A stretch of 64,000 bases of DNA from Megaustenia siamemsis. Lineage: Eukaryota; Mollusca; Gastropoda; Stylommatophora; Ariophantidae. A program made the translations under genes and the position numbers. This document shows positions 8,041 through 58,109 of this stretch, in pieces; position 1 is the stretch's first letter; each line of letters starts with the position of its first letter. The DNA is taken from the NCBI GenBank assembly GCA_032433765.1, contig JAVIAB010000102.1, forward strand, positions 13,328,414 to 13,392,413, given 5' to 3'. The notes under the pieces were generated by a model, which had not been told where the DNA came from, did not search any database, and saw only the letters and a program-made list of their open reading frames with translations.

Positions 8041-8067
8041 CTACCTCTTGCTTTCTTGAATCATAAT
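8041..8067 (-). CDS. MGAT4: Probable terminal MGAT4 exon J (8 codons and stop)
   Basis: After the acceptor TCTTATTTTCACAG the minus strand reads IMIQESKR and TAG. Family members end with a short strand after WxILxE, of the form I-x-I-x-K, and this segment has the right phase (0), length and alternating hydrophobic pattern. No better candidate was found between 12099 and 1. An AATAAA follows about 105 bp after the stop. The exon is too short to be proven by similarity alone. A different last exon further downstream remains possible. Confidence 0.55.
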   Translation of the reverse strand: MMIQESKR

Positions 8068-12099: not shown

Positions 12100-12388
12100 T
12101 TCACTTAAAATCACCCAGGCATTAGACTTCTCATGAATATGTATTCGAAGCGTCTGTATATTCCCCACCTCTTTTGGTACTCCTCCTTCTGCAAATCCAG
12201 CATTATTAAATCGTCCAATGGGAAAGAAGCCCTCAGATGTATGATTAAGCTCTAAGTTACTCAGCCCAACATTCGATACAATTGTGTCAACGGTTGATTG
12301 GCTGATCTTGTCCACTGGTAGAACTTCTATAGTTGTGTTGTGAAAGATGTCCCCTGGGTGGTCCATGTGTCCACTACGGAATAAGTAC
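12100..12388 (-). CDS. MGAT4: MGAT4 exon I: lectin-like domain
   Basis: The 289-bp exon completes Leu, then reads YLFRSGHMDHPGDIFHNTTI, EVLPVDKI and so on to GFAEGGVPKEVGNIQTLRI and SNAWVILSE. YLFRSG, HPGDxxxNTT, VEVLP, VAEG and WVILSE are family landmarks. The HNTT sequon could be N-glycosylated. The acceptor is TTTCATTCCAG and the donor GAA|GTAAGT, phase 0. If unspliced, reading on from the donor gives Val-Ser-Val-Tyr-Phe-Leu-Ile and a stop. A 30-bp minisatellite starts about 80 bp upstream of the acceptor. The protein lacks only about eight to ten residues after this exon. Confidence 0.94.
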
Positions 12389-15115: not shown

Positions 15116-15309
15116 AAATCCACATGAATTGGTGGATTAAATTTAAAATCAATGGTGTCACCCTTAATTGGGTTTGATGCCCAGAAGAAAGTCTCGCCAG
15201 CGTAGGCTTTACTAAGCAGGTAGTTCTGGTAGGTGTTTAGTGTTGTGGACAACTCTGCAGGTGGGTTGGCGTGAGCTCTGTATAGACCTGCCTTGCCAAA
15301 GTCACGATC
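15116..15309 (-). CDS. MGAT4: MGAT4 exon H: start of the C-terminal lectin-like domain
   Basis: The 194-bp exon reads DRDFGKAGLYRAHANPPAEL, STTLNTYQNYLLSKAYAGET and FFWASNPIKGDTIDFKFNPP, ending IHVD plus two bases. NPPAxxxTxLxxYQ and GExFFWA are typical of the MGAT4 C-terminal region. In vertebrate GnT-IV that region forms a lectin domain that binds glycans with terminal GlcNAc. The acceptor is TTTTATTTTAG and the donor GATTT|GTAAGT. Phase matches exons G and I exactly. Confidence 0.93.
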
Positions 15310-18820: not shown

Positions 18821-18928
18821 CTTCAGTTTTTGCACTTTCCCAGGAAGTGATGACTCCGTGCCTATATGTTGAAACAATGATGGTTTATATCTGCAACGTA
18901 CAGACTGAATCATCCGCTGGCAATGTTT
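18821..18928 (-). CDS. MGAT4: MGAT4 exon G
   Basis: The 36-codon, phase-0 exon begins [20 protein letters not shown] and ends [16 protein letters not shown]. The KHC at the start and KPSLFQHxGxxSSLxGKxQKL fit the end of the catalytic domain in the family. I placed the start at TATGGTAG|AAA rather than at the AG 12 bases later, because only the earlier one restores the conserved Lys-His-Cys. The donor is AAG|GTAAGC. Upstream of the acceptor the intron becomes an AT-rich (GATAAGATATAA)-like repeat. Confidence 0.92.
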
Positions 18929-20153: not shown

Positions 20154-20284
20154 CACATCTTTTTCTGGACTGCAGACTTTGACCCACAAGAGATGGTCCA
20201 TGAGCCAGTCAATGGGTTTATCCGAGTGAAACATCAGGAAGAACTCAACCACAGTGGACACATCCGAGGACTTGAACATCTTAC
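20154..20284 (-). CDS. MGAT4: MGAT4 exon F
   Basis: The exon starts with GT of a split Gly codon and reads [40 protein letters not shown] and KDV. DKPIDWLxDHxLWVKVC is one of the most conserved blocks of MGAT4 enzymes. The acceptor is TTATTTGCAG and the donor GTG|GTAAGA, phase 0. The region just upstream in the transcript holds an RTE-like LINE copy in the opposite orientation (20345-20860). Confidence 0.93.
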
Positions 20285-22284: not shown

Positions 22285-22865
22285 GTTTCATCATCATCAT
22301 GTGCCATACTGGTTGGCATAGGTGATAATGCCCTTCCACAATCTTCTATCTACAGTGCATCGTACCAGTTCTATTGTTGACTGTTTTCCATGCCATGACA
22401 CCAAGCTATCCAGTATTTTCTCTCTTTGTTGTCCGCAATCTCTCTTTCCATTTTGCCAGTTGTAACCAAGTATTCCAACTTTCCTCTTCTCATGATGTGC
22501 CCGAAAAATGTTGATTGTTTCTTTCTGATGTTTTTTAGTAGCTCCCTTTTTGTGTTGGCCTCTTTGAGAACTTCCTCATTTGTCTTTTTAGCTGTCCTAG
22601 GAACTTTCAACATTCTTCTGAGAAATCCCATCTCTGTGGCCCCCAATCGTCCTCTCATTTGTTTGTCCACTGTCCATGATTCGCTTCTATAGGTCAGAAT
22701 TGGTTCTATATAGCACCGATGAACTCTCTTTCTCATTTCTATTGACATAGATTTGTTGCATAAGATATTTTTCATTTTCTGAAATGCTATTTTGGCCTGA
22801 GCTATTCTGCTTTTCATTTCTGTGGTGCATCTTCCATCTGATGTTATTATATTGGAGTTTAACAT
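22285..22865 (-). mobile_element. RTE-like LINE 3' part, family B
   Basis: A 164-codon frame encodes SRIAQAKIAFQKMKNILCNK, YRSESWTVDKQMRGRLGATE and FFGHIMRRGKLEYLVTTGKM. The (GAT) tail is at 22285. Confidence 0.82.
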
Positions 22866-22924
22866 TTTAAAATTAATTTGTAATATTAATTACAGACTAG
22901 CTAAGAATTAAATTATTCATAAAA

Positions 22925-23230: not shown

Positions 23231-23341
23231 CAATAAACCCAGAGTTGAGAATTCTAGCATTATCCAGTCATCTTTTTGCTCATGAGCAAATGTCTTCATG
23301 ATGTTCAGGTAGTCTGGTTTAGCCATGACATCATCCTCTAA
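23231..23341 (-). CDS. MGAT4: MGAT4 exon E: acidic EDD motif, with an apparent 1-nt frameshift
   Basis: The exon reads LEDDVMAKPDYLNIMKTFAH then EQKDDWIMLEFSTLG. The Glu-Asp-Asp at residues 2-4 is the DxD-like motif expected to bind the metal and UDP-GlcNAc. The acceptor is TGTTTTCAG and the donor TTG|GTAAGT. The family reads LGFIG|GK across this junction, and exon F starts GT AAG ATG, needing one leading base. Here the exon ends CTG GGT TTA TTG, one base short of CTG GGT TTT ATT G. This looks like one T missing from a T run. A sequencing or assembly indel is the simplest explanation. A real frameshift, or use of an acceptor five bases inside exon F, cannot be excluded. An RTE-like LINE starts about 40 bp upstream of the acceptor. 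Confidence 0.9.
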
Positions 23342-24547: not shown

Positions 24548-26370
24548 GAATAGGATAGGATAGGGTAGGGTAGGGTAGGGTAGGGTAGGATAGGATAGGG
24601 TAGGATAGGATAGGATAGGATAGGGTAGGATAGGATAGGGTAGGGTAGGGTAGGGTAGGATAGGATAGGGTAGGGTAGGGTAGGGTAGGATAGGATAGGG
24701 TAGGGTAGGGTAGGGTAGGGTAGGATAGGATAGGATAGGATAGGATAGGATAGGATAGGGTAGGGTAGGGTAGGGTAGGATAGGATAGGATAGGGTAGGG
24801 TAGGGTAGGGTAGGGTAGGGTAGGATAGGATAGGATAGGATAGGATAGGATAGGGTAGGGTAGGGTAGGGTAGGATAGGGTAGGATAGGATAGGATAGGA
24901 TAGGGTAGGGTAGGGTAGGGTAGGATAGGATAGGATAGGATAGGGTAGGGTAGGGTAGGGTAGGGTAGGATAGGGTAGGATAGTATAGGATAGGATAGGA
25001 TAGGATAGGATAGGGTAGGATAGGATAGAATAGAATAGAATAGGATAGGATAGGATAGGATAGGGTAGGATAGGGTAGGATAGGATAGAATAGGATAGGA
25101 TAGGATAGGATAGAATAGGATAGGATAGGATAGGGTAGGGTAGGATAGGATAGGGTAGGATAGGATAGGATAGGATAGGATAGGATAGGATAGGATAGGA
25201 TAGGGTAGGATAGGATAGGGTAGGGTAGGATAGGATAGGATAGGATAGGGTAGGATAGGGTAGGATAGGATAGGGTAGGATAGGATAGGATAGGGTAGGA
25301 TAGGGTAGGATAGGATAGGATAGGGTAGGGTAGGATAGGATAGGATAGTATAGGATAGGATAGGATAGGGTAGGATAGGATAGGATAGGGTAGGATAGGA
25401 TAGGATAGGATAGGATAGGGTAGGATAGGATAGGATAGGGTAGGGTAGGATAGGATAGGATAGTATAGGATAGGATAGGATAGGGTAGGATAGGATAGGA
25501 TAGGGTAGGATAGGATAGGCTAGGTTAGGATAGGGTAGGATAGGATAGGATAGGATAGGATAGGATAGGATAGGAAAGGATAGGATAGAATAGGGTAGGA
25601 TAGAATAGGATAGGATAGGATAGGATAGGATGGTACAGGATAGTACAGGATAGTATAGGATAGTACAGGATAGTATAGGATAGGATAGGATAAGATATGA
25701 TAGAATAGAATAGGATAGGATAGGATAGGATAGGATAGGATAGGATAGAATAGGATAGGATAGAATAGGATAGAATAGAATAGGATAGGATAGGATAGGA
25801 TATGATAGGATAGGATAGGATAGGATAGGAAAGGATAGGATAGGATAGGATAGGATAGGATCGGATAGGATAGGATAGAATAGGATAGGATAAGATAGAA
25901 TATAATATAATAGATTAGAATAGGGTAGGGTAGGGTAGGATAAAATAGGATAGGATAGAATAGGATAGGATAGGATAGAATAGGATAGGATAGGATAGTA
26001 CAGGATAGTATAGGATAGTACAGGATAGTATAGGATAGGATAGGATAGGATAGGATATGATAGAATAGAATAGGATAGGATAGAATAGGATAGAATAGAA
26101 TAGGATAGGATAGGATAGGATAGGATAGAATAGAATAGGATAGGATAGGATAAGATAGAATATAATATAATAGATTAGAATAGGATAGGATAGGATAGGA
26201 TAAGATAGAATAGAGTAGAATAGAATAGAATAGAATAGAATATATTAGAATAGGATAGGATAGGATAAGATAGAATAGAGTAGAATAGAATAGAATAGAA
26301 TAGAATAGAATAGAATAGAATAGAATAGAATAGAATAGAATAGAATAGAATAGAATAGAATAGAATAGAA
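24548..26370. repeat. TAGGA / TAGGG / TAGAA pentanucleotide array, 1.8 kb
   Basis: Pure 5-bp units. TAGGG and TAGGA are mixed at the left, mainly TAGGA in the middle, and pure TAGAA at 26280-26370. The plus strand is G-rich; the MGAT4 pre-mRNA would carry UACCC/UAUCC. Confidence 0.97.
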
Positions 26371-27235: not shown

Positions 27236-28510
27236 AGTCTAAGGTTAGGATGGACTCACCTGCACATAGTATGTTGCTTTAGGATGGACTCACCTGCACA
27301 TAGTATGTTGTTTTAGGATGGACTCACCTGCATATAGTATGTTGCTTTAGGATGGACTCACCTGCACATAGTATGTTGCTTTAGGCTGGACTCACCTGCA
27401 CATAGTATGTTGCTTTAAGATGGACTCACCTGCACATAGTATGTTGCTTTAGGATGGGACTCACCTGCACATAGTATGTTGCTTTAGGATGGACTCACCT
27501 GCACATAGTATGTTGCTTTAGGATGGACTCACCTGCACATAGTATGTTGCTTTAGGATGGACTCACCTGCACATAGTATGTTGCTTTAGGCTGGACTCAC
27601 CTGCACATAGTATGTTGCTTTAAGATGGACTCACCTGCACATAGTATGTTGCTTTAGGATGGACTCACCTGCACATAGTATGTTGCTTTAGGCTGGACTC
27701 ACCTGCACATAGTATGTTGCTTTAGGATGGACTCACCTGCACATAGTATGTTGCTTTAGGATGGACTCACCTGCACATAGTATGTTGCTTTAGGATGGAC
27801 TCACCTGCACATAGTATGTTGCTTCAGGCTGGACTCACCTGCACATAGTATGTTGCTTCAGGCTGGACTCACCTGCACATAGTATGTTGCTTTAGGCTGG
27901 ACTCACCTGCACACAGTATGTTGCTTTAGGATGGACTCACCTGCACATAGTATGTTGCTTTAGGCTGGACTCACCTGCACATAGTATGTTGCTTTAGGAT
28001 GGACTCACCTGCACATAGTATGTTGCTTTAGGAGGGACTCACCTGCACATAGTATGTTGCTTTAAGCTGGACTCACCAACACATAGTATGTTGCTTTAGG
28101 ATGGACTCACCTGCACATAGTATGTTGCTTTAGGCTGGACTCACCTGCACATAATATGTTGCTTTAGGCTGGACTCACCTGCACATAGTATGTTGCTTTA
28201 GGCTGGACTCACCTGCACATAGTACGTTGCTTTAGGCTGGACTCACCTGCACATAGTATGTTGCTTTAGGCTGGACTCACCTGCACATAGTATGTTGCTT
28301 TAGGCTGGACTCACCTGCACATAGTATGTTGCTTTCGGCTGGACTCACCTGCACATAGTATGTTGCTTTAGGCTGGACTCACCTGCACATAGTATGTTGC
28401 TTTCGGCTGGACTCACCTGCACATAGTATGTTGCTTTAGGCTGGACTCACCTGCACATAGTATGTTGCTTTAGGCTGGACTCACCTGCACATAGTATGTT
28501 GCTTTAGGCC
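27236..28510 (-). repeat. 34-bp array of exon D end plus 5' splice site, about 38 units
   Basis: On the MGAT4 strand each unit reads AAAGCAACATACTATGTGCA, then G|GTGAGTCC and A(G/T)CCT. The first 21 bases are the end of exon D and the rest the start of its intron. Nearly all units keep a consensus CAG|GTGAGT. The real exon end is the unit at 28485. Confidence 0.95.
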
Positions 28511-28560
28511 TACTGTACAGCATGAGATAAGCATAATCCAAGTTCTGCTTTGTGCGCCAT
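28485..28560 (-). CDS. MGAT4: MGAT4 exon D
   Basis: The 76-bp exon completes a Lys codon, then reads [18 protein letters not shown] and [16 protein letters not shown] is a signature of MGAT4 enzymes, immediately before the metal-binding acidic motif. The acceptor is TTTGACACACAG and the donor is CAG|GTGAGT, a near-perfect 5' splice site, phase 0. The last 21 bases of the exon plus the first 13 of the intron form the unit of a 34-bp tandem array running from here to 27236. Any downstream donor would add Val-Ser-Pro-Ala (or Ser) and then a TAA, so only the first donor gives full-length enzyme. Confidence 0.94.
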
Positions 28561-28599
28561 CTGTGTGTCAAATAAAACAGGCTTTAAAGACACAGTTTT

Positions 28600-29105
28600 C
28601 ATAGCTGTTCTACTATCCTTCCACCAATTCCATTGGTGTCGAGGGGAGATACACTCTGCGATTCTTTGCTCTTCTGGTGGCCTCTTCTGGTGTTATCCCT
28701 CCTAGTGACTCTAGTATTCCCTTTATCCATCTCTTTCTTGGTCTTCCTCTTAATCAGGCGTTTTCGTAGCGTTTTTTTTATGGCTCTTTGAGTCATTGTT
28801 AGTTCTTTTTGTCTTGTTTTGTGGCCGAACCAATTTATCTGTTGTTTCTTTATGTATTCGATGGCTGGTTCAATTTCGAGTTTCTTCCTCAGGTCAGTGT
28901 TTCTTACTCTGTCCCTTAAGCTGTTTCCTGTCATTCTTCTGACACATTTCATTTCGGTGGTCATTATCTTTCTTAATGTTCTAGAGTCCAGCGTCCAATT
29001 CTGACACTGATAGCACAGAGTTGGTAGAAAAATTGATTTGTATATTGCCCTTTTTGCTTCCGTAGTTATTGCTTTGTTTTTCAATAGTGTTGATACTTGG
29101 CCTAT
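28600..29105 (-). mobile_element. Non-LTR retrotransposon C-terminal part, family D
   Basis: A 161-codon frame reads AIYKSIFLPTLCYQCQNWTL, MKCVRRMTGNSLRDRVRNTD, YIKKQQINWFGHKTRQ. The (TA)n at 29130 flanks its 5' side. Confidence 0.75.
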
Positions 29106-29309
29106 AACTTGGCATGCTTTGTTACACCTTATATATATATATATATATCTCTAAGTTTCATAGCTGTGAAAACCAATAATAGGGGAAGCAACCCAAAACA
29201 AATAAATGCTTGAAAAAAATGCATTATGGGATAAACAGTCCCAAACAATTGAATACACAATACAAAGATTAACTGGACTGCTTGGGGCAATATACTTCTT
29301 CTTCTTCTT

Positions 29310-32189: not shown

Positions 32190-32290
32190 CATCAAGTGCT
32201 ATGCCTGATGGTGTAGATGATTGCCTCTATCCGCAACTATGTATCACTACAGCTCAGCTGTTTATCAATTCTGTTGTTGACTTCTTAAAA
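32190..32290 (-). mobile_element. Fragment of a family-A LINE 3' end
   Basis: GGTGTAGATGATTGCCTCTA and TTCTGTTGTTGACTTCTT match the 3' end at 13739-13830. Confidence 0.5.
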
Positions 32291-32660
32291 CTTACTTGAC
32301 TCTTTCTTTGGAGTCACCAAAGTTCTAGCAATAACTTACTTGACTCTTTCTTTGGAGTCACCAAAGTTCTAGCAATAACTTACTTGACTCTTTCTTTGGA
32401 GTTACCAAAGTTCTAGCAATAACTTACTTGACTCTTTCTTTGGAGTCACCAAAGTTCTAGCAATAACTTACATGACTCTTTCTTTAGAGTCACAAAGTTC
32501 TAGCAATAACTTACTTGACTCTTTCTTTGGAGTCCAAAGTTCTAGAAAAAACTTACTTGACTCTTTCTTTGGAGTCACCAAAGTTCTAGCAATAACTTAC
32601 TTGACTCTTTCTATGGAGTCATCAAAGTTCTAGCAATAACTTACTTGACTCTTTCTTTGG
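32287..32660 (-). repeat. 44-bp array of exon C end plus 5' splice site, nine units
   Basis: On the MGAT4 strand each unit reads AGAACTTTGGTGACTCCAAA, GAAAGAGTCAA|GTAAGTT and ATTGCT. The ninth unit (32645) is the true exon end. All nine keep GTAAGT. A few have small deletions in the exon-derived part. Confidence 0.95.
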
Positions 32661-32758
32661 AGTCACCAAAGTTCTCCTTCAGGTTGTCTAGGTTTGGGTA
32701 GAACTCAGGTTGAGGAACAATCACCTCCAGCAGACCTGACTCCAAAGAAGGGGTAAAG
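32645..32758 (-). CDS. MGAT4: MGAT4 exon C
   Basis: The 114-bp exon completes a Ser codon, then reads [37 protein letters not shown] and two bases of a Lys codon. The SGLLEVI and [13 protein letters not shown] blocks are strongly conserved in the MGAT4 family and belong to the nucleotide-sugar binding domain. The acceptor is TTTTCTTTGCAG and the donor is TCAA|GTAAGT. Reading through the donor gives Lys then TAA at once. The last 30 or so bases of this exon and its donor have been copied in tandem eight more times into the downstream intron. A separate 38-bp array begins about 30 bp upstream of the acceptor, so the exon sits between two minisatellites. Confidence 0.93.
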
Positions 32759-32789
32759 CTGCAAAGAAAACAGACCAGAAACAGCTTGT

Positions 32790-33088
32790 TTTAGCATGAT
32801 GAAGTTGTATATAGTGATGTGTCTTGTTTTAGCATGATGAAGTTGTATATAATGATGTGTCTTGTTTTAGCATGATGAAGTTGTATATAGTGATGTGTCT
32901 TGTTTAAGCATGATGAAGTTGTATATAGTGATGTGTCTTGTTTTAGCATGATGAAGTTGTATATAGTGATGTGTCTTGTTTTAGCATGATGAAGTTGTAT
33001 ATAGTGATGTGTCTTGTTTTAGCATGATGAAGTTGTATATAGTGATGTGTCTTGTTTTAGCACGATGAAGTTGTATATAGTGATGGGT
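32790..33088. repeat. 38-bp minisatellite, about eight units, upstream of exon C
   Basis: The unit is TGTCTTGTTTTAGCATGATG then AAGTTGTATATAGTGATG. It begins about 30 bp from the exon C acceptor. Confidence 0.94.
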
Positions 33089-33092
33089 CTAT

Positions 33093-39420: not shown

Positions 39421-39470
39421 CTTTCCCTGATACTTGCTATCACCTGATCTGAATACTGTTTATCCCATGG
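39421..39470 (-). CDS. MGAT4: MGAT4 exon B (50 bp)
   Basis: This small exon encodes PWDKQYSDQVIASIRE plus two bases of a Ser codon completed by the next exon. It fills exactly the gap between exon A (ending FIGE, phase 0) and exon C (starting with one base, then [12 protein letters not shown]). The acceptor is TTGTTTTCAG. The donor AG|GTTGGT is weak by consensus, but it is the one that gives the correct phase. A stronger-looking site inside the exon (CAG|GTGATA) would break the frame of exon C. A 22-bp minisatellite starts about 20-30 bp upstream of the acceptor, so the branch-point region is largely repeat-derived. The join is inferred from phase and family order, not from a transcript. Confidence 0.8.
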
Positions 39471-41112: not shown

Positions 41113-44100
41113 GTGGACATCAACAGTGTCTGTCAGGCTATCTATGTGGACATCAACAGTGTCTGTCTTGCTATCTATGTGGACATCAACAGTGTCTGTC
41201 TTGCTATCTATGTGGACATCAACAGTGTCTGTCTTGCTATCTATGTGGACATCAACAGTGTATGTCTGGCTATCTATGTGGACATCAACAGTGTCTGTCT
41301 TGCTATCTATGTGGACATCAACAGTGTCTGTCTTGCTATCTATGTGGACATCAACAGTGTCTGTCTTGCTATCTATGTGGACATCAACAGTGTCTGTCTT
41401 GCTATCTATGTGGACATCAACAGTGTATGTCTGGCTATCTATGTGAACATCAACAGTGTCTGTTTTGCTATCTATGTGGACATCAACAGTGTCTGTCTGG
41501 CTATCTATGTGGACATCAACAGTGTCTGTCTGGCTATCTATGTGGACAGCAACAGTATCTGTCTTGCTATCTATGTGGTCATCAACAGTGTCTATCTGGC
41601 TATATATGTGGACATCAACAGTGTCTGTCTTGCTATCTATGTGGGCATCAACAGTGTCTGTCTGGCTATCTATGTGGACATCAACAGTGTCTGTCTGGCT
41701 ATCTATGTGGACATCAACAGTATCTGTCTGGCTATCTATGTGAACATCAACAGTGTCTGTCTGGCTATCTATGTGGACATCAACAGTGTCTGTCTTGCTA
41801 TCTATGTGGACATCAACAGTGTCTGTCTTGCTATCTATGTGGACATCAACAGTGTCTGTCTTGCTATCTATGTGGACATCAACAGTGTCTGTCTTGCTAT
41901 CTATGTGGACATCAACAGTGTCTGTCTGACTATCTATGTGGACATTAACAGTGTGAGTCTTGCTATCTATGTGGACATCAACAGTGTCTGTCTTGCTATC
42001 TATGTGGACATCAACAGTGTCTGTCTGGCTATCTATGTGGACATCAACAGTGTCTGTCTTGCTATCTATGTGGACATCAACAGTGTCTGTCTGGCTATCT
42101 ATGTGGACATCAACAGTGTCTGTTTTGCTATCTATGTGGACATCAACAGTGTCTGTCTGGCTATCTATGTGGACATCAACAGTGTCTGTCTGGCTATCTA
42201 TGTGGACATCAACAGTGTCTGTCTTGCTATCTATGTGGACATCAACAGTGTCTGTCTGGCTATCTATGTGGACATCAACAGTGTCTGTCTTGCTATCTAT
42301 GTGGACATCAACAGTGTCTGTCTTGCTATCTATGTGGACATCAACAGTGTCTGTCTGGCTATCTATGTGGACATCAATAGTGTCTGTCTGGCTATCTATG
42401 TGGACATCAACAGTGTCTGTCTGGCTATCTATGTGGACATAAACAGTGTCTGTCTTGCTATCTATGTGGTCATCAACAGTATATCTCTGGCTATCTATGT
42501 GGACATCAACAGTGTCTGTCTTGCTATCTATGTGGACATCAACAGTGTCTGTCTGGCTATCTATGTGGACAGCAACAGTGTCTGTCTGGCTATCTATGTG
42601 GACATCAACAGTATCTGTCTGGCTATCTATGTGGACATCAACAGTATCTGTCTGGCTATATATGTGGACATCAACAGTGTCTGTCTTGCTATATATGTGG
42701 ACATCAACAGTGTCTGTCTTGCTATCTATGTGGACATCAACAGTGTCTGTCTGGCTATCTATGTGGACATCAACAGTGTCTGTCTTGCTATCTATGTGGA
42801 CATCAACAGTGTCTGTCTGGCTATCTATGTGGACATCAACAGTGTCTGTTTTGCTATCTATGTGGACATCAACAGTGTCTGTCTTGCTATCTATGTGGAC
42901 ATCAACAGTGTCTGTCTTGCTATCTATGTGGACATCAACAGTGTCTGTCTTGCTATCTATGTGGACATCAACAGTGTCTGTCTGGCTATCTATGTGGACA
43001 TCAACAGTGTCTGTCTTGCTATCTATGTGGACATCAACAGTGTCTGTCTGGCTATCTATGTGGACATCAACAGTGTCTGTTTTGCTATCTATGTGGACAT
43101 CAACAGTGTCTGTCTTGCTATCTATGTGGACATCAACAGTGTCTGTCTTGCTATCTATGTGGACATCAACAGTGTCTGTCTTGCTATCTATGTGGACATC
43201 AACAGTGTCTGTCTTGCTATCTATGTGGACATCAACAGTGTATGTCTGGCTATCTATGTGACCATCAACAGTGTCTGTTTTGCTATCTATGTGGACATCA
43301 ACAGTGTCTGTCTGGCTATCTATGTGGACATCAAAAGAGTCTCTATCTGGCTATCTACGTGGACATCAACAGTGTCTGTCTTGCTATCTATGTGGACATC
43401 AACAGTGTCTATCTGGCTATATATGTGGACATCAACAGTGTCTGTCTTGCTATCTATGTGGGCATCAACAGTGTCTGTCTTGCTATCTATGTGGACATCA
43501 ACAGTGTCTGTCTTGCTATCTATGTGGACATCAACAGTGTCTGTCTTGCTATCTATGTGGACATCAACAGTGTCTGTCTGGCTATCTATGTGGACATCAA
43601 CAGTGTCTGTCTTGCTATCTATGTGGACATCAACAGTGTCTGTCTTGCTATCTATGTGGACATCAACAGTGTCTGTCTGGCTATCTATGTGGACATCAAC
43701 AGTGTCTGTCTTGCTATCTATGTGGACATCAACAGTGTCTGTCTTGCTATCTATGTGGACATCAACAGTGTCTGTCTTGCTATCTATGTGGACATCAACA
43801 GTGTCGGTCTGGCTATCTATGTGGACATCAACAGTGTCTGTCTTGCTATCTATGTGGACATCAACAGTGTCTGTCTTGCTATCTATGTGGACATCAACAG
43901 TGTCTGTCTGACTATGTGGACATCAACAGTGTCTGTCTAGCTATCTATGTGGACATCAACAGTGTCTGTCTTGCTATCTATGTGGACATCAACAGTGTCT
44001 GTCTTGCTATCTATGTGGACATCAACAGTGTCTGTCTTGCTATCTATGTGGACATCAACAGTGTCTGTCTGACTATCTATGTGGACATCAACAGTGTCTG

Positions 44101-47100
44101 TCTTGCTATCTAGGTGGACATCAACAGTGTCTGTCTTGCTATCTATGTGGACATCAACAGTGTCTGTCTGGCTATCTATGTGGACATCAACAGTGTCTGT
44201 CTTGCTATCTATGTGGACATCAACAGTGTCTGTCTTGCTATCTATGTGGACATCAACAGTGTCTGTCTGGCTATCTATGTGGACATTAACAGTGTCTGTC
44301 TTGCTATCTATGTGGACATCAACAGTGTCTGTCTTGCTATCTATGTGGACATCAACAGTGTCTGTCTGGCTATCTATGTGGACATCAACAGTGTCTGTCT
44401 GGCTATCTATGTGGACATCAACAGTGTCTGTCTGGCTATCTATGTGGACATCAACAGTGTCTGTCTGGCTATCTATGTGGACATCAACAGTGTCTGTCTT
44501 GCTATCTATGTGGACATCAACAGTGTCTGTCTGGCTATCTATGTGGACATCAACAGTGTCTGTCTTGCTATCTATGTGGACATCAACAGTGTCTGTCTTG
44601 CTATTTATGTGGACATCAACAGTGTCTGTCTGGCTATCTATGTGGACATCAACAGTGTCTGTCTGGCTATCTATGTGGACATCAACAGTGTCTGTCTGGC
44701 TATCTATGTGGACATCAACAGTGTCTGTCTTGCTATCTATGTGGACATCAACAGTGTCTGTCTGGCTATCTATGTGGACATCAACAGTGTCTGTTTTGCA
44801 ATCTATGTGGACATCAACAGTGTCTGTCTTGCTATCTATGTGGACATCAACAGTGTCTGTCTTGCTATCTATGTGGACATCAACAGTGTCTGTCTGGCTA
44901 TCTATGTGGACATCAATAGTGTCTGTCTGGCTATCTATGTGGACATCAACAGTGTCTGTCTGGCTATCTATGTGGACATAAACAGTGTCTGTCTTGCTAT
45001 CTATGTGGTCATCAACAGTATATCTCTGGCTATCTATGTGGACATCAACAGTGTCTGTCTTGCTATCTATGTGGACATCAACAGTGTCTGTCTTGCTATC
45101 TATGTGGACATCAACAGTGTCTGTCTTGCTATCTATGTGGACATCAACAGTGTCTGTCTGGCTATCTATGTGGACATCAACAGTGTCTGTCTGGCTATCT
45201 ATGTGGACATCAACAGTGTCTGTCTGGCTATCTATGTGGACATCAACAGTGTCTGTCTGGCTATCTATGTGGACATCAACAGTGTCTGTCTTGCTATCTA
45301 TGTGGACATCAACAGTGTCTGTCTGGCTATCTATGTGGACATCAACAGTGTCTGTCTTGCTATCTATGTGGACATCAACAGTGTCTGTCTTGCTATTTAT
45401 GTGGACATCAACAGTGTCTGTCTGGCTATCTATGTGGACATCAATAGTGTCTGTCTGGCTATCTATGTGGACATCAACAGTGTCTGTCTGGCTATCTATG
45501 TGGACATCAACAGTGTCTGTCTTGCTATCTATGTGGACATCAACAGTGTCTGTCTGGCTATCTATGTGGACATCAACAGTGTCTGTTTTGCAATCTATGT
45601 GGACATCAACAGTGTCTGTCTTGCTATCTATGTGGACATCAACAGTGTCTGTCTTGCTATCTATGTGGACATCAACAGTGTCTGTCTGGCTATCTATGTG
45701 GACATCAATAGTGTCTGTCTGGCTATCTATGTGGACATCAACAGTGTCTGTCTGGCTATCTATGTGGACATAAACAGTGTCTGTCTTGCTATCTATGTGG
45801 TCATCAACAGTATATCTCTGGCTATCTATGTGGACATCAACAGTGTCTGTCTTGCTATCTATGTGGACATCAACAGTGTCTGTCTGGCTATCTATGTGGA
45901 CATCAACAGTGTCTGTCTGGCTATCTGTGTGGACAACAACAGTATCTGTCTGGCTATCTATGTGGACATCAACAGTATCTGTCTGGCTATCTATGTGGAC
46001 ATTAACAGTATCTGTCTGGCTATCTATGTGGACATCAACAGTGTCTGTCTGGCTATCTATGTGGACATCAACAGTATCTGTCTTGCTATCTATGTGGACA
46101 TCAACAGTGTCTGTCTTGCTATCTATGTGGACATCAACAGTGTCTGTCTTGCTATCTATGTGGACATCAACAGTGTCTGTCTTGCTATCTATGTGGACAT
46201 CAACAGTGTCTGTCTTGCTATCTATGTGGACATCAACAGTGTCTGTCTGGCTATCTATGTGGACATCAACAGTATCTGTCTGGCTATCTATGTGGACAGC
46301 AACAGTATCTGTCTGGCTATATATGTGGACATCAACAGTGTCTATCTGGCTATATATGTGGACATCAACAGTGTCTGTCTTGCTATCTATGTGGGCATCA
46401 ACAGTGTCTGTCTGGCTATCTATGTGGACATCAACAGTGTCTGTCTGGCTATCTATGTGGACATCAACAGTATCTGTCTGGCTATCTATGTGAACATCAA
46501 CAGTGTCTGTCTGGCTATCTATGTGGACATCAACAGTGTCTGTCTTGCTATCTATGTGGACATCAACAGTGTCTGTCTTGCTATCTATGTGGACATCAAC
46601 AGTGTCTGTCTTGCTATCTATGTGGACATCAACAGTGTCTGTCTTGCTATCTATGTGGACATCAACAGTGTCTGTCTGACTATCTATGTGGACATTAACA
46701 GTGTCTGTCTTGCTATATATGTGGACATCAACAGTGTCTGTCTTGCTATCTATGTGGACATCAACAGTGTCTGTCTGGCTATCTATGTGGACATCAACAG
46801 TGTCTGTCTTGCTATCTATGTGGACATCAACAGTGTCTGTCTTGCTATCTATGTGGACATCAACAGTGTCTGTCTGGCTATCTATGTGGACATCAACAGT
46901 GTCTGTCTTGCTATCTATGTGGACATCAACAGTGTCTGTCTTGCTATCTATGTGGACATCAACAGTGTCTGTCTGGCTATCTATGTGGACATCAACAGTG
47001 TCTGTCTGGCTATCTATGTGGACATCAACAGTGTCTGTCTTGCTATCTATGTGGACATCAACAGTGTCTGTCTGACTATCTATGTGGACATTAACAGTGT

Positions 47101-50100
47101 GAGTCTTGCTATCTATGTGGACATCAACAGTGTCTGTCTTGCTATCTATGTGGACATCAACAGTGTCTGTCTGGCTATCTATGTGGACATCAACAGTGTC
47201 TGTCTTGCTATCTATGTGGACATCAACAGTGTCTGTCTGGCTATCTATGTGGACATCAACAGTGTCTGTTTTGCTATCTATGTGGACATCAACAGTGTCT
47301 GTCTGGCTATCTATGTGGACATCAACAGTGTCTGTCTGGCTATCTATGTGGACATCAACAGTGTCTGTCTTGCTATCTATGTGGACATCAACAGTGTCTG
47401 TCTGGCTATCTATGTGGACATCAACAGTGTCTGTCTTGCTATCTATGTGGACATCAACAGTGTCTGTCTTGCTATCTATGTGGACATCAACAGTGTCTGT
47501 CTGGCTATCTATGTGGACATCAATAGTGTCTGTCTGGCTATCTATGTGGACATCAACAGTGTCTGTCTGGCTATCTATGTGGACATAAACAGTGTCTGTC
47601 TTGCTATCTATGTGGTCATCAACAGTATATCTCTGGCTATCTATGTGGACATCAACAGTGTCTGTCTTGCTATCTATGTGGACATCAACAGTGTCTGTCT
47701 GGCTATCTATGTGGACAGCAACAGTGTCTGTCTGGCTATCTATGTGGACATCAACAGTATCTGTCTGGCTATCTATGTGGACATCAACAGTATCTGTCTG
47801 GCTATATATGTGGACATCAACAGTGTCTGTCTTGCTATATATGTGGACATCAACAGTGTCTGTCTTGCTATCTATGTGGACATCAACAGTGTCTGTCTGG
47901 CTATCTATGTGGACATCAACAGTGTCTGTCTTGCTATCTATGTGGACATCAACAGTGTCTGTCTGGCTATCTATGTGGACATCAACAGTGTCTGTTTTGC
48001 TATCTATGTGGACATCAACAGTGTCTGTCTTGCTATCTATGTGGACATCAACAGTGTCTGTCTTGCTATCTATGTGGACATCAACAGTGTCTGTCTTGCT
48101 ATCTATGTGGACATCAACAGTGTCTGTCTGGCTATCTATGTGGACATCAACAGTGTCTGTCTTGCTATCTATGTGGACATCAACAGTGTCTGTCTGGCTA
48201 TCTATGTGGACATCAACAGTGTCTGTTTTGCTATCTATGTGGACATCAACAGTGTCTGTCTTGCTATCTATGTGGACATCAACAGTGTCTGTCTTGCTAT
48301 CTATGTGGACATCAACAGTGTCTGTCTTGCTATCTATGTGGACATCAACAGTGTCTGTCTTGCTATCTATGTGGACATCAACAGTGTATGTCTGGCTATC
48401 TATGTGACCATCAACAGTGTCTGTTTTGCTATCTATGTGGACATCAACAGTGTCTGTCTGGCTATCTATGTGGACATCAAAAGAGTCTCTATCTGGCTAT
48501 CTACGTGGACATCAACAGTGTCTGTCTTGCTATCTATGTGGACATCAACAGTGTCTATCTGGCTATATATGTGGACATCAACAGTGTCTGTCTTGCTATC
48601 TATGTGGGCATCAACAGTGTCTGTCTTGCTATCTATGTGGACATCAACAGTGTCTGTCTTGCTATCTATGTGGACATCAACAGTGTCTGTCTGGCTATCT
48701 ATGTGGACATCAACAGTGTCTGTCTGGCTATCTATGTGGACATCAACAGTGTCTGTCTTGCTATCTATGTGGACATCAACAGTGTCTGTCTTGCTATCTA
48801 TGTGGACATCAACAGTGTCTGTCTGGCTATTTATGTGGACATCAACAGTGTCTGTCTTGCTATCTATGTGGACATCAACAGTGTCTGTCTTGCTATCTAT
48901 GTGGACATCAACAGTGTCTGTCTTGCTATCTATGTGGACATCAACAGTGTCGGTCTGGCTATCTATGTGGACATCAACAGTGTCTGTCTTGCTATCTATG
49001 TGGACATCAACAGTGTCTGTCTTGCTATCTATGTGGACATCAACAGTGTCTGTCTGACTATGTGGACATCAACAGTGTCTGTCTAGCTATCTATGTGGAC
49101 ATCAACAGTGTCTGTCTTGCTATCTATGTGGACATCAACAGTGTCTGTCTTGCTATCTATGTGGACATCAACAGTGTCTGTCTTGCTATCTATGTGGACA
49201 TCAACAGTGTCTGTCTGACTATCTATGTGGACATCAACAGTGTCTGTCTTGCTATCTAGGTGGACATCAACAGTGTCTGTCTTGCTATCTATGTGGACAT
49301 CAACAGTGTCTGTCTGGCTATCTATGTGGACATCAACAGTGTCTGTCTTGCTATCTATGTGGACATCAACAGTGTCTGTCTTGCTATCTATGTGGACATC
49401 AACAGTGTCTGTCTGGCTATCTATGTGGACATTAACAGTGTCTGTCTTGCTATCTATGTGGACATCAACAGTGTCTGTCTTGCTATCTATGTGGACATCA
49501 ACAGTGTCTGTCTGGCTATCTATGTGGACATCAACAGTGTCTGTCTGGCTATCTATGTGGACATCAACAGTGTCTGTCTGGCTATCTATGTGGACATCAA
49601 CAGTGTCTGTCTTGCTATCTATGTGGACATCAACAGTGTCTGTCTGACTATCTATGTGGACATTAACAGTGTCAGTCTTGCTATCTATGTGGACATCAAC
49701 AGTGTCTGTCTTGCTATCTATGTGGACATCAACAGTGTCTGTCTGGCTATCTATGTGGACATCAACAGTGTCTGTCTTGCTATCTATGTGGACATCAACA
49801 GTGTCTGTCTGGCTATCTATGTGGACATCAACAGTGTCTGTTTTGCTATCTATGTGGACATCAACAGTGTCTGTCTGGCTATCTATGTGGACATCAACAG
49901 TGTCTGTCTGGCTATCTATGTGGACATCAACAGTGTCTGTCTTGCTATCTATGTGGACATCAACAGTGTCTGTCTGGCTATCTATGTGGACATTAACAGT
50001 GTCTGTCTTGCTATCTATGTGGACATCAACAGTGTCTGTCTTGCTATCTATGTGGACATCAACAGTGTCTGTCTGGTTATCTATGTGGACATCAATAGTG

Positions 50101-53100
50101 TCTGTCTGGCTATCTATGTGGACATCAACAGTGTCTGTCTGGCTATCTATGTGGACATCAACAGTGTCTGTCTTGCTATCTATGTGGACATCAACAGTGT
50201 CTGTCTGGCTATCTATGTGGACATCAACAGTGTCTGTTTTGCAATCTATGTGGACATCAACAGTGTCTGTCTTGCTATCTATGTGGACATCAACAGTGTC
50301 TGTCTTGCTATCTATGTGGACATCAACAGTGTCTGTCTGGCTATCTATGTGGACATCAATAGTGTCTGTCTGGCTATCTATGTGGACATCAACAGTGTCT
50401 GTCTGGCTATCTATGTGGACATAAACAGTGTCTGTCTTGCTATCTATGTGGTCATCAACAGTATATCTCTGGCTATCTATGTGGACATCAACAGTGTCTG
50501 TCTTGCTATCTATGTGGACATCAACAGTGTCTGTCTGGCTATCTATGTGGACATCAACAGTGTCTGTCTGGCTATCTATGTGGACAACAACAGTATCTGT
50601 CTGGCTATCTATGTGGACATCAACAGTATCTGTCTGGCTATCTATGTGGACATTAACAGTATCTGTCTGGCTATCTATGTGGACATCAACAGTGTCTGTC
50701 TGGCTATCTATGTGGACATCAACAGTATCTGTCTTGCTATCTATGTGGACATCAACAGTGTCTGTCTTGCTATCTATGTGGACATCAACAGTGTCTGTCT
50801 TGCTATCTATGTGGACATCAACAGTGTCTGTCTTGCTATCTATGTGGACATCAACAGTGTCTGTCTTGCTATCTATGTGGACATCAACAGTGTCTGTCTT
50901 GCTATATATGTGGACATCAACAGTGTCTGTCTTGCTATCTATGTGGACATCAACAGTGTCTGTCTGGCTATCTATGTGGACATCAACAGTGTCTGTCTTG
51001 CTATCTATGTGGACATCAACAGTGTCTGTCTGGCTATCTATGTGGACATCAACAGTGTCTGTTTTGCTATCTATGTGGACATCAACAGTGTCTGTCTTGC
51101 TATCTATGTGGACATCAACAGTGTCTGTCTTGCTATCTATGTGGACATCAACAGTGTCTGTCTTGCTATCTATGTGGACATCAACAGTGTCTGTCTTGCT
51201 ATCTATGTGGACATCAACAGTGTATGTCTGGCTATCTATGTGGACATCAACAGTGTCTGTCTTGCTATCTATGTGGACATCAACAGTGTCTGTCTTGCTA
51301 TCTAGGTGGACATCAACAGTGTCTGTCTTGCTATCTATGTGGACATCAACAGTGTCTGTCTTGCTATCTATGTGGACATCAACAGTGTATGTCTTGCTAT
51401 CTATGTGAACATCAACAGTGTCTGTTTTGCTATCTATGTGGACATCAACAGTGTCTGTCTGGCTATCTATGTGGACATCAACAGTATCTGTCTGGCTATC
51501 TATGTGGACAGCAACAGTATCTGTCTGGCTATATATGTGGACATCAACAGTGTCTATCTGGCTATATATGTGGACATCAACAGTGTCTGTCTTGCTATCT
51601 ATGTGGGCATCAACAGTGTCTGTCTGGCTATCTATGTGGACATCAACAGTGTCTGTCTGGCTATCTATGTGGACATCAACAGTATCTGTCTGGCTATCTA
51701 TGTGAACATCAACAGTGTCTGTCTGGCTATCTATGTGGACATCAACAGTGTCTGTCTTGCTATCTATGTGGACATCAACAGTGTCTGTCTTGCTATCTAT
51801 GTGGACATCAACAGTGTCTGTCTTGCTATCTATGTGGACATCAACAGTGTCTGTCTTGCTATCTATGTGGACATCAACAGTGTCTGTCTGACTATCTATG
51901 TGGACATTAACAGTGTCTGTCTTGCTATATATGTGGACATCAACAGTGTCTGTCTTGCTATCTATGTGGACATCAACAGTGTCTGTCTGGCTATCTATGT
52001 GGACATCAACAGTGTCTGTCTTGCTATCTATGTGGACATCAACAGTGTCTGTCTTGCTATCTATGTGGACATCAACAGTGTCTGTCTGGCTATCTATGTG
52101 GACATCAAAAGAGTCTCTATCTGGCTATCTACGTGGACATCAACAGTGTCTGTCTTGCTATCTATGTGGACATCAACAGTGTCTATCTGGCTATCTATGT
52201 GGACATCAACAGTGTCTGTCTGGCTATCTATGTGGACATCAACAGTGTCTGTCTTGCTATCTATGTGGACATCAACAGTGTCTGTCTGACTATCTATGTG
52301 GACATTAACAGTGTGAGTCTTGCTATCTATGTGGACATCAACAGTGTCTGTCTTGCTATCTATGTGGACATCAACAGTGTCTGTCTGGCTATCTATGTGG
52401 ACATCAACAGTGTCTGTCTTGCTATCTATGTGGACATCAACAGTGTCTGTCTGGCTATCTATGTGGACATCAACAGTGTCTGTTTTGCTATCTATGTGGA
52501 CATCAACAGTGTCTGTCTGGCTATCTATGTGGACATCAACAGTGTCTGTCTGGCTATCTATGTGGACATCAACAGTGTCTGTCTTGCTATCTATGTGGAC
52601 ATCAACAGTGTCTGTCTGGCTATCTATGTGGACATCAACAGTGTCTGTCTTGCTATCTATGTGGACATCAACAGTGTCTGTCTTGCTATCTATGTGGACA
52701 TCAACAGTGTCTGTCTGGCTATCTATGTGGACATCAATAGTGTCTGTCTGGCTATCTATGTGGACATCAACAGTGTCTGTCTGGCTATCTATGTGGACAT
52801 AAACAGTGTCTGTCTTGCTATCTATGTGGTCATCAACAGTATATCTCTGGCTATCTATGTGGACATCAACAGTGTCTGTCTTGCTATCTATGTGGACATC
52901 AACAGTGTCTGTCTGGCTATCTATGTGGACAGCAACAGTGTCTGTCTGGCTATCTATGTGGACATCAACAGTATCTGTCTGGCTATCTATGTGGACATCA
53001 ACAGTATCTGTCTGGCTATATATGTGGACATCAACAGTGTCTGTCTTGCTATATATGTGGACATCAACAGTGTCTGTCTTGCTATCTATGTGGACATCAA

Positions 53101-56100
53101 CAGTGTCTGTCTGGCTATCTATGTGGACATCAACAGTGTCTGTCTTGCTATCTATGTGGACATCAACAGTGTCTGTCTGGCTATCTATGTGGACATCAAC
53201 AGTGTCTGTTTTGCTATCTATGTGGACATCAACAGTGTCTGTCTTGCTATCTATGTGGACATCAACAGTGTCTGTCTTGCTATCTATGTGGACATCAACA
53301 GTGTCTGTCTTGCTATCTATGTGGACATCAACAGTGTCTGTCTGGCTATCTATGTGGACATCAACAGTGTCTGTCTTGCTATCTATGTGGACATCAACAG
53401 TGTCTGTCTGGCTATCTATGTGGACATCAACAGTGTCTGTTTTGCTATCTATGTGGACATCAACAGTGTCTGTCTTGCTATCTATGTGGACATCAACAGT
53501 GTCTGTCTTGCTATCTATGTGGACATCAACAGTGTCTGTCTTGCTATCTATGTGGACATCAACAGTGTCTGTCTTGCTATCTATGTGGACATCAACAGTG
53601 TATGTCTGGCTATCTATGTGACCATCAACAGTGTCTGTTTTGCTATCTATGTGGACATCAACAGTGTCTGTCTGGCTATCTATGTGGACATCAAAAGAGT
53701 CTCTATCTGGCTATCTACGTGGACATCAACAGTGTCTGTCTTGCTATCTATGTGGACATCAACAGTGTCTATCTGGCTATATATGTGGACATCAACAGTG
53801 TCTGTCTTGCTATCTATGTGGGCATCAACAGTGTCTGTCTTGCTATCTATGTGGACATCAACAGTGTCTGTCTTGCTATCTATGTGGACATCAACAGTGT
53901 CTGTCTTGCTATCTATGTGGACATCAACAGTGTCTGTCTGGCTATCTATGTGGACATCAACAGTGTCTGTCTTGCTATCTATGTGGACATCAACAGTGTC
54001 TGTCTTGCTATCTATGTGGACATCAACAGTGTCTGTCTGGCTATCTATGTGGACATCAACAGTGTCTGTCTTGCTATCTATGTGGACATCAACAGTGTCT
54101 GTCTTGCTATCTATGTGGACATCAACAGTGTCTGTCTTGCTATTTATGTGGACATCAACAGTGTCGGTCTGGCTATCTATGTGGACATCAACAGTGTCTG
54201 TCTTGCTATCTATGTGGACATCAACAGTGTCTGTCTTGCTATCTATGTGGACATCAACAGTGTCTGTCTGACTATGTGGACATCAACAGTGTCTGTCTAG
54301 CTATCTATGTGGACATCAACAGTGTCTGTCTTGCTATCTATGTGGACATCAACAGTGTCTGTCTTGCTATCTATGTGGACATCAACAGTGTCTGTCTTGC
54401 TATCTATGTGGACATCAACAGTGTCTGTCTGACTATCTATGTGGACATCAACAGTGTCTGTCTTGCTATCTAGGTGGACATCAACAGTGTCTGTCTTGCT
54501 ATCTATGTGGACATCAACAGTGTCTGTCTGGCTATCTATGTGGACATCAACAGTGTCTGTCTTGCTATCTATGTGGACATCAACAGTGTCTGTCTTGCTA
54601 TCTATGTGGACATCAACAGTGTCTGTCTGGCTATCTATGTGGACATTAACAGTGTCTGTCTTGCTATCTATGTGGACATCAACAGTGTCTATCTTGCTAT
54701 CTATGTGGACATCAACAGTGTCTGTCTGGCTATCTATGTGGACATCAACAGTGTCTGTCTGGCTATCTATGTGGACATCAACAGTGTCTGTCTGGCTATC
54801 TATGTGGACATCAACAGTGTCTGTTTTGCTATCTATGTGGACATCAACAGTGTCTGTCTTGCTATCTATGTGGACATCAACAGTGTCTGTCTTGCTATCT
54901 ATGTGGACATCAACAGTGTCTGTCTTGCTATCTATGTGGACATCAACAGTGTCTGTCTGACTATCTATGTGGACATTAACAGTGTCAGTCTTGCTATCTA
55001 TGTGGACATCAACAGTGTCTGTCTTGCTATCTATGTGGACATCAACAGTGTCTGTCTGGCTATCTATGTGGACATCAACAGTGTCTGTCTTGCTATCTAT
55101 GTGGACATCAACAGTGTCTGTCTGGCTATCTATGTGGACATCAACAGTGTCTGTTTTGCTATCTATGTGGACATCAACAGTGTCTGTCTGGCTATCTATG
55201 TGGACATCAACAGTGTCTGTCTGGCTATCTATGTGGACATCAACAGTGCCTGTCTTGCTATCTATGTGGACATCAACAGTGTCTGTCTGGCTATCTATGT
55301 GGACATCAACAGTGTCTGTCTTGCTATCTATGTGGACATCAACAGTGTCTGTCTTGCTATCTATGTGGACATCAACAGTGTCTGTCTGGCTATCTATGTG
55401 GACATCAATAGTGTCTGTCTGGCTATCTATGTGGACATCAACAGTGTCTGTCTGGCTATCTATGTGGACATAAACAGTGTCTGTCTTGCTATCTATGTGG
55501 TCATCAACAGTATATCTCTGGCTATCTATGTGGACATCAACAGTGTCTGTCTTGCTATCTATGTGGACATCAACAGTGTCTGTCTGGCTATCTATGTGGA
55601 CAGCAACAGTGTCTGTCTGGCTATCTATGTGGACATCAACAGTATATGTCTGGCTATCTATGTGGACATCAACAGTATCTGTCTGGCTATATATGTGGAC
55701 ATCAACAGTGTCTGTCTTGCTATATATGTGGACATCAACAGTGTCTGTCTTGCTATCTATGTGGACATCAACAGTGTCTGTCTGGCTATCTATGTGGACA
55801 TCAACAGTGTCTGTCTTGCTATCTATGTGGACATCAACAGTGTCTGTCTGGCTATCTATGTGGACATCAACAGTGTCTGTTTTGCAATCTATGTGGACAT
55901 CAACAGTGTCTGTCTTGCTATCTATGTGGACATCAACAGTGTCTGTCTTGCTATCTATGTGGACATCAACAGTGTCTGTCTGGCTATCTATGTGGACATC
56001 AATAGTGTCTGTCTGGCTATCTATGTGGACATCAACAGTGTATGTCTGGCTATCTATGTGGACATAAACAGTGTCTGTCTTGCTATCTATGTGGTCATCA

Positions 56101-57964
56101 ACAGTATATCTCTGGCTATCTATGTGGACATCAACAGTGTCTGTCTTGCTATCTATGTGGACATCAACAGTGTCTGTCTGGCTATCTATGTGGACATCAA
56201 CAGTGTCTGTCTGGCTATCTATGTGGACAACAACAGTATCTGTCTGGCTATCTATGTGGACATCAACAGTATCTGTCTGGCTATCTATGTGGACATTAAC
56301 AGTATCTGTCTGGCTATCTATGTGGACATCAACAGTGTCTGTCTGGCTATCTATGTGGACATCAACAGTATCTGTCTTGCTATCTATGTGGACATCAACA
56401 GTGTCTGTCTTGCTATCTATGTGGACATCAACAGTGTCTGTCTTGCTATCTATGTGGACATCAACAGTGTCTGTCTTGCTATCTATGTGGACATCAACAG
56501 TGTCTGTCTTGCTATCTATGTGGACATCAACAGTGTCTGTCTTGCTATATATGTGGACATCAACAGTGTCTGTCTTGCTATCTATGTGGACATCAACAGT
56601 GTCTGTCTGGCTATCTATGTGGACATCAACAGTGTCTGTCTTGCTATCTATGTGGACATCAACAGTGTCTGTCTGGCTATCTATGTGGACATCAACAGTG
56701 TCTGTTTTGCTATCTATGTGGACATCAACAGTGTCTGTCTTGCTATCTATGTGGACATCAACAGTGTCTGTCTTGCTATCTATGTGGACATCAACAGTGT
56801 CTGTCTTGCTATCTATGTGGACATCAACAGTGTCTGTCTTGCTATCTATGTGGACATCAACAGTGTATGTCTGGCTATCTATGTGGACATCAACAGTGTC
56901 TGTCTTGCTATCTATGTGGACATCAACAGTGTCTGTCTTGCTATCTATGTGGACATCAACAGTGTCTGTCTTGCTATCTATGTGGACATCAACAGTGTCT
57001 GTCTTGCTATCTATGTGGACATCAACAGTGTATGTCTGGCTATCTATGTGAACATCAACAGTGTCTGTTTTGCTATCTATGTGGACATCAACAGTGTCTG
57101 TCTGGCTATCTATGTGGACATCAACAGTATCTGTCTGGCTATCTATGTGGACAGCAACAGTATCTGTCTGGCTATATATGTGGACATCAACAGTGTCTAT
57201 CTGGCTATATATGTGGACATCAACAGTGTCTGTCTTGTTATCTATGTGGGCATCAACAGTGTCTGTCTTGCTATCTATGTGGACATCAACAGTGTCTGTC
57301 TTGCTATCTATGTGGACATCAACAGTGTCTGTCTTGCTATCTATGTGGACATCAACAGTGTCTGTCTGGCTATCTATGTGGACATCAACAGTGTCTGTCT
57401 TGCTATCTATGTGGACATCAACAGTGTCTGTCTTGCTATCTATGTGGACATCAACAGTGTCTGTCTGGTTATCTATGTGGACATCAACAGTGTCTGTCTG
57501 GCTATCTATGTGGACATCAACAGTGTCTGTCTTGCTATCTATGTGGACATCAACAGTGTCTGTCTTGCTATCTATGTGGACATCAACAGTGTCTGTCTTG
57601 CTATCTATGTGGACATCAACAGTGTCGGTCTGGCTATCTATGTGGACATCAACAGTGTCTGTCTTGCTATCTATGTGGACATCAACAGTGTCTGTCTTGC
57701 TATCTATGTGGACATCAACAGTGTCTGTCTGACTATGTGGACATCAACAGTGTCTGTCTTGCTATCTATGTGGACATCAACAGTGTCTGTCTTGCTATCT
57801 ATGTGGACATCAACAGTGTCTGTCTTGCTATCTATGTGGACATCAACAGTGTCTGTCTTGCTATCTATGTGGACATCAACAGTGTCTGTCTGACTATCTA
57901 TGTGGACATCAACAGTGTCTGTCTTGCTATCTATGTGGACATCAACAGTGTCTGTCTTGCTATC
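41113..57964. repeat. 33-bp satellite, 16.9 kb, about 511 units, with higher-order repeats
   Basis: The unit is TATGTGGACATCAACAGTGT then CTGTC(T/G)(T/G)GCTATC. It fills most of the intron between exons A and B and stops 11 bp from the exon A donor. Marker variants show block duplication: TCAAAAGAG at 43331, 48477 and 53691, and a 4-bp deletion at 43908, 49054 and 54268. The spacings are 5146 and 5214 bp. All three plus frames and one minus frame are open for long stretches because 33 is divisible by three. Confidence 0.98.
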
Positions 57965-57975
57965 CCATCACTCAC

Positions 57976-58109
57976 CTCCCCAATGAAGACAACAATGAGA
58001 CAGCTCTGACTTTCTTCACGACTCAGACCTGCAATCAGGGAGGACAGAGTCTTGATCAGGTATGATTCTTTAGCCCTCCTAATTGTAGGAACACCAAGGA
58101 CAATGCTTA
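57976..58109 (-). CDS. MGAT4: MGAT4 exon A: start of the GT54 catalytic domain
   Basis: This is the most 5' exon found for an alpha-1,3-mannosyl-glycoprotein 4-beta-N-acetylglucosaminyltransferase. The enzyme is a Golgi type II membrane protein that adds a beta-1,4-GlcNAc branch to the alpha-1,3-mannose arm of N-glycans. The 134 bp start after an acceptor (TTCTTGCAG), contribute two bases of a split Val codon, then read [20 protein letters not shown] and end in LIVVFIGE. This matches the conserved start of the GT54 domain. The donor is GAG|GTGAGT, phase 0. Reading on into the intron meets a TAG after 14 codons. A large 33-bp satellite begins 11 bp downstream of the exon end. The preceding exons (cytoplasmic tail, membrane anchor, stem) were not found up to 64000. 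MGAT4A, B or C type cannot be decided here. Confidence 0.93.

Follow-up and report, generated by a model that had tools for sequence, protein, structure and literature searches.

An MGAT4-type N-acetylglucosaminyltransferase gene spans the window, our term for the whole 64,000-nucleotide stretch of Megaustenia siamemsis DNA analysed, and is read from its minus strand. A preliminary description of the locus had named the gene correctly: the protein joined from exons D-F matches the Pfam profile MGAT4_cons (PF04666) at E 6.6e-48, and relatives possess an equal exon order. The closest protein is that of Candidula (77%, a partial record), which is continuous across the E-F join; the exon D-F protein, compared with solved structures, had no match at 1e-3. 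The joins B-B2-C-D and H-I were read in frame, and the remaining joins were judged by phase. Exon D continues the phase of exon C and closes with a complete codon, and exon E is entered in frame from its acceptor at 23341, so the exon-proximal donor at 28485/28484 gives the right protein, as had been proposed. Exon F (20284) starts with GTAAGA directly after CAG, which places a strong donor-like sequence across its acceptor. The 22-bp array that precedes exon B2 stops 26 bp short of the B2 acceptor.

Table 1. Coordinates of MGAT4 exons and tandem arrays in the window (slashes mark exon-intron junctions; TRF, Tandem Repeats Finder)
Feature	Position	Strand	Description	Basis
Exon B	57976..58109	minus	134 nt, donor GAG/GTGAGT	
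33-bp array	41113..57964	minus	about 511 copies, 17 kb; starts after 11 intron bases behind exon B, donor outside	
Exon B2	39421..39470	minus	PWDKQYSDQVIASIRE; 50 nt, weak donor AAG/GTTGGT, array-free donor	
Exon C	32645..32758	minus	114 nt, true donor is copy 1 of the 44-bp array	
44-bp donor minisatellite	32289..32675	minus	9 copies of exon C end plus GTAAGTT	TRF, motif reading
Exon D	28485..28560	minus	76 nt, true donor is copy 1 of the 34-bp array	
34-bp donor minisatellite	27245..28509	minus	37 copies of exon D end plus GTGAGT	TRF, motif cutting
Exon E	23231..23341	minus	111 nt, in frame with exon D	
Exon F	20154..20284	minus		
Exon G	18821..18928	minus		
Exon H	15116..15309	minus		
Exon I	12100..12388	minus		
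Exon J, coding part	8041..8067	minus	last coding exon (IMIQESKR, stop)	

The 5' splice site of exon D is the first of a long train. Tandem Repeats Finder places an array of period 34 at 27245-28509 (37.2 copies, 96% matches), and cutting it at GGTGAGT yields 37 donors, running head-to-tail on the minus strand from 28484 to 27259. About 38 copies at 27236-28560 had been reported previously; the array is real, and its number and limits are corrected here, the copy number being the value from one assembly. The repeated element is the end of the exon with its donor, ...AAAGCAACATACTATGTGCAG/GTGAGT. Donor spacing is 34 bp in 35 of 36 intervals and 35 bp in the other, which excludes a hidden copy with a broken donor between them. 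GTGAGT is intact in all 37 copies; the full CAG/GTGAGT, which had been ascribed to each copy, is found in 36, and the remaining one reads TTG/GTGAGT. Reading through by one unit gives ...YYVQVSPA and a stop, identical for every downstream donor, in agreement with the TAA within five codons noted earlier. A two-unit probe was compared with the 2.59-Gb assembly (155 contigs), scoring the best candidates only and skipping very common words, and its matches were confined to this array, at 21 places. The possibility of a dispersed satellite was rejected, since among the candidates scored the probe matched this locus only.

Exon C, directly upstream of exon D, carries a second donor array that is absent from the preliminary description. 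The exon ends in GAACTTTGGTGACTCCAAAGAAAGAGTCAA/GTAAGTT, and this junction is repeated nine times with small changes at spacings of 44, 44, 42, 43, 44, 44, 44 and 44 bp. GTAAGTT is intact in 9/9 copies, and use of a downstream donor adds K and then an immediate stop. The authentic donors of two adjacent coding exons are thus the first copies of two arrays, the property by which a splice-donor minisatellite is recognized. On the acceptor side of exon C, a 38-bp array (32785-33090) ends 26 bp short of the splice site, and its last copy may contain the exon C branch point.

How would such arrays arise, and why would they be kept? We consider it likely that they are slippage-born, mostly neutral donor minisatellites, tolerated by splicing in a tandem-rich gastropod genome. 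The two minisatellites would have originated independently in one MGAT4 copy, each when replication slipped, or unequal exchange took place, across a 5' splice site. At exon D, slippage between an exonic CCTAA and another some 10 bp inside the intron would produce a unit of exactly 34 bp, and a matching scar is visible: from CCTAA in the exon (...AGGCCTAAAGC) to CCTAA in the distal flank (GTGAGTCCATCCTAACC) the distance is 34 bp. Such an event fits the neutral slippage that had been listed among several options. The scar also suggests that the unit consists of 24 exonic and 10 intronic bases; the division into 21 exonic and 13 intronic bases given previously is one of several equivalent phases. 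The distal intron flank has CCATCCTAACC, and the predicted 'T' form of the unit is found in 17 of 37 copies. The 'G' form, equal to the exon copy, fills copies 1-12 (one-sided Mann-Whitney P 8e-5 for the gradient), a pattern that the exon copy would produce by feeding or converting the array. The copies would then have multiplied and become partly homogenised. The scar at exon C is weaker, with AGAA on both sides and a distal flank that is not an exact match to the unit length. Both arrays would persist because the exon-side donor is kept and the remainder is spliced away with the intron.

Do the additional donors serve the gene? A decoy, a nonsense-mediated decay (NMD) switch, a U1 platform and a recursive-splicing ratchet had all been suggested, and none of them gains positive support. 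A paralogue with an exon order equal to that of the window copy lies at C1:36803796-36889307, and the introns behind its exons B, C and D are free of arrays over the 191, 229 and 216 bases read, respectively. The donors there are GAG/GTGAGA, CAA/GTAAGT and CAG/GTATGT; Tandem Repeats Finder reports only a 9-bp x 2 repeat inside exon C and, beyond the first 160 bases of the intron that follows exon D, some short runs. Equal exon ends therefore exist free of arrays, and a poison element conserved between the copies was not found at these three donors. The paralogue may stem from the land-snail genome duplication proposed in the accessible text of PMC12407731. A more distant MGAT4-like exon set lies at C1:60187268-60329223.

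Within the arrays, the donor hexamers are unchanged in all 46 copies of the exon D and exon C units taken together. This uniformity counts against the slippage account: the probability of finding no change in either hexamer is 0.015 when the two column probabilities are multiplied and 0.079 by Fisher's combination. Selection on the donor columns was considered and rejected: P is 0.056 for exon D and 0.28 for exon C, which is suggestive and not convincing. RNA hairpins that hide the exon D donors were likewise rejected, since exon D together with the 136 bases (four units) behind it is no more stably folded than shuffled sequences (z 0.26).

These results bear directly on the idea of a decoy or NMD rheostat, by which downstream donors would give a controlled fraction of transcripts a premature stop and tune MGAT4 output. 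Any downstream donor does lead to a stop within the first unit (VSPA-stop at exon D, K-stop at exon C), and the hexamers are intact in 37/37 and 9/9 copies; an early stop is, however, usual on reading into introns, and the paralogue lacks arrays at the corresponding donors. We regard such a rheostat as very improbable. Still less probable is a model in which each copy acts as a zero-length-exon recursive site and the array trims itself out stepwise with the donor always restored. The YAG/GTRAGT junction of recursive splicing is present in 36 of 37 exon D copies as CAG/GTGAGT, CCTAA or a close variant lies about 20 nt ahead of it in each copy, and splicing of copy 1 to copy k would regenerate the same donor. 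Tandem duplication across an exon boundary is, moreover, described as a source of new introns in the accessible text of PMC4974935. Against this model, no pyrimidine tract precedes the AG, as the preliminary description had remarked; the consensus copy, inspected by eye, has AAGCAACATACTATGTGCAG in its place.

A different possibility is that the window gene is a decaying duplicate whose arrays reflect lost constraint, which would be compatible with slippage. Exon E is one nucleotide short at its end, where it reads LGLL against LGFIGK in relatives, and the E-F join is off by 1 nt in the assembly, making the 17th codon of exon F a stop; the frame across the MGAT4 exons is thus broken, and the copy may be decaying. 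Of nine exons compared with the Biomphalaria protein, moreover, seven are closer in the C1 paralogue than in the window copy, exon F is a tie and exon A2 goes the other way. However, the other joins are in frame, and the partial Candidula protein, which spans the E-F join, is closest to the window copy. The missing base adjoins a G run and could be either an assembly error or real decay. On balance, we think decay rather unlikely, and we retain slippage followed by tolerance as the preferred explanation.

Splice-donor arrays had been thought undescribed; two published human cases, ABCA7 and IFI6, make them a known kind. As far as the accessible text of PMC5954066 goes, the exon 18 donor of human ABCA7 forms part of a 25-bp VNTR in intron 18, which ranges from about 12 to about 427 copies. 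Retention of one unit shifts the frame and accounts for 2 +/- 1% of transcripts at steady state; transcripts with premature stops rose when translation was blocked, hence NMD (PMC5954066). One-unit retention is independent of allele length, longer alleles raise skipping of the next exon, and alternative isoforms together exceed the canonical one in some brain samples (PMC5954066). The likeness is close, in that a minisatellite holds the donor of the upstream exon and use of the next copy brings one-unit retention and a premature stop. The ABCA7 array differs in that its 25-bp unit opens with the GT of the donor and has no exonic tail described in the accessible text, and in being polymorphic (PMC5954066). 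The snail array, in contrast, has a 34-bp unit with 21-25 exonic bases, belongs to a mollusc, and is accompanied by a second array in the same gene. The minisatellite of IFI6 has a 12-bp unit that stays in frame, and its isoforms gain a few amino acids, whereas the first downstream unit of the exon D array already brings a stop. The IFI6 array (6-16, G1P3) supplies multiple donors, of which two downstream units are used, according to the accessible text of PMC4526556, citing Turri 1995. The new introns of PMC4974935 also involve a duplication across an exon-intron boundary that copies splice signals; in the accessible account each follows from one duplication, whereas the snail has its junction copied dozens of times and shows no sign of a new intron. 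Earthworm metallothionein genes contain intronic minisatellites that the accessible text of PMC12783039 does not describe as donor arrays. Among the matches listed from the open-licence literature, none was a splice-donor minisatellite in a mollusc or a pair of them in one gene.

Which of 37 donors would the spliceosome choose? Work ascribed to Eperon in 1993 is said to show that, of equally strong competing donors, the intron-proximal one is favoured in vitro. By that rule, the snail array would be destructive. The ABCA7 array points the other way: its next copy takes a small share of transcripts, and the exon-proximal donor is expected to win in the snail as well. The rise of premature-stop transcripts under blocked translation, and the brain samples in which alternative ABCA7 isoforms exceed the canonical one, tell against this expectation. 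That donor probably performs nearly all splicing; the downstream donors would then be used at a low level to give premature-stop transcripts, and array length may alter splicing efficiency, by analogy with ABCA7. With 37 near-identical strong donors in series, the locus amounts to a natural experiment on spliceosome choice among equal 5' splice sites. To our knowledge, such a train exceeds any laboratory construct.

Do exon-intron junctions seed tandem repeats? The question is raised by the presence of two donor arrays in one gene and of two more donors touched by arrays. Since 33 is divisible by three, the 33-bp array behind exon B can be read as long trivial open frames on either strand. Exon A2, which lies upstream in the gene and outside the window, is followed after 6 intron bases by a 60-bp x 14 array. 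In total, 4 of 10 donors (A2, B, C and D) carry or abut an array, by a rule that counts any array touching the first 15 bases of the intron and extending no more than 60 bp into the exon; this rule was fixed after B, C and D were known, and A2, its sole fresh test, was also positive. An array lies within 15 bp of 0 of 11 acceptors and within 30 bp of 2 of 11. When 29 arrays (period at least 15, at least 3 copies, score at least 100) were re-placed at random over 103 kb, four donors were reached in 2 of 50,000 trials.

Arrays are abundant throughout this genome. A sample taken in 1-Mb steps along one contig (198 kb, including 7.5 kb of N) contained 49 arrays with period at least 15, at least 4 copies and score at least 150, covering 26.6% of bases, as compared with 14 arrays and 37.7% in the window. 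The sample density extrapolates to about 640,000 arrays genome-wide, and, given an assumed animal-typical exon number, chance alone would be expected to yield a few thousand that span donors. One donor-spanning array is therefore not astonishing here. Random placement predicts about 0.1 donor-spanning arrays per 10 donors, with P 0.003-0.006 for at least two, and the two that span donors in this gene, together with the four donors touched, exceed it. This excess may argue against plain random slippage as the whole story.

Tests on array edges gave results that depend on distance. An edge lies within 30 bp of 5 of 18 splice sites (about 0.68 expected, P 0.0006) and within 20 bp of 1 of 18 (P 0.37), using 21 arrays merged by hand from 59 Tandem Repeats Finder rows, one of them a 5-bp array, and an exon F end that is one base off. 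In a run with 16 sites that left out exon B2, and in which several exon ends are off by 1-3 bases, four sites have an edge within 35 bp (P 0.005) and one has an edge within 15 bp (P 0.27).

One explanation is that 5' splice sites act as minisatellite hot spots in this genome, R-loops or replication stalled at the exon-intron junction being possible causes, and that the pattern recurs in many genes, which would carry functional-looking trains of U1 sites at intron starts. Such hot spots would refine the slippage explanation and are not an exclusive alternative to it. They would account for the four donors, out of 10, that have an array across them or beginning no more than 11 bases away, for the lack of arrays within 15 bp of any acceptor, for the rarity of this outcome on random re-placement and for the positive result at A2 when it was examined later. 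However, the observation comes from a single gene and from a rule set once three of the donors were known, and the genome sample lends no support. Only 2 of its 49 arrays hold a donor of score at least 9 in the unit (scores from an approximate weight matrix), both in one sampled piece, and as candidate exon ends these units were set aside, since no coding sequence could be shown. Arrays with a donor in the unit are not significantly more frequent in the window (2/14) than in the sample (2/49; Fisher P 0.21), and donor-like sites of score at least 8.5 at the edges of sample arrays, three facing in and five facing away, show no excess. Arrays also stop 26 bp ahead of two acceptors. Introns tolerate arrays, and array edges would therefore be pushed towards exons without any donor preference. 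We thus hold preferred birth at 5' splice sites to be improbable, and slippage with subsequent tolerance by splicing remains our favoured account. Were donor seeding true, repeat instability would be tied both to the signals of splicing and to VNTRs in disease, such as that of ABCA7.

The introns of the window hold further repeats and open frames. Between exons D and E, the intron contains 1.8 kb of the tandemly repeated pentamer TCCTA (minus strand, 24550-26368). Some intronic open frames, such as those at 22297-22889 and 28599-29150, resemble what we take to be the C-terminal ends of LINE reverse transcriptases. Downstream of the stop codon lies a 30-bp array (6933-7386), many units of which contain the donor-like CAGGTGAAT, altered in several.
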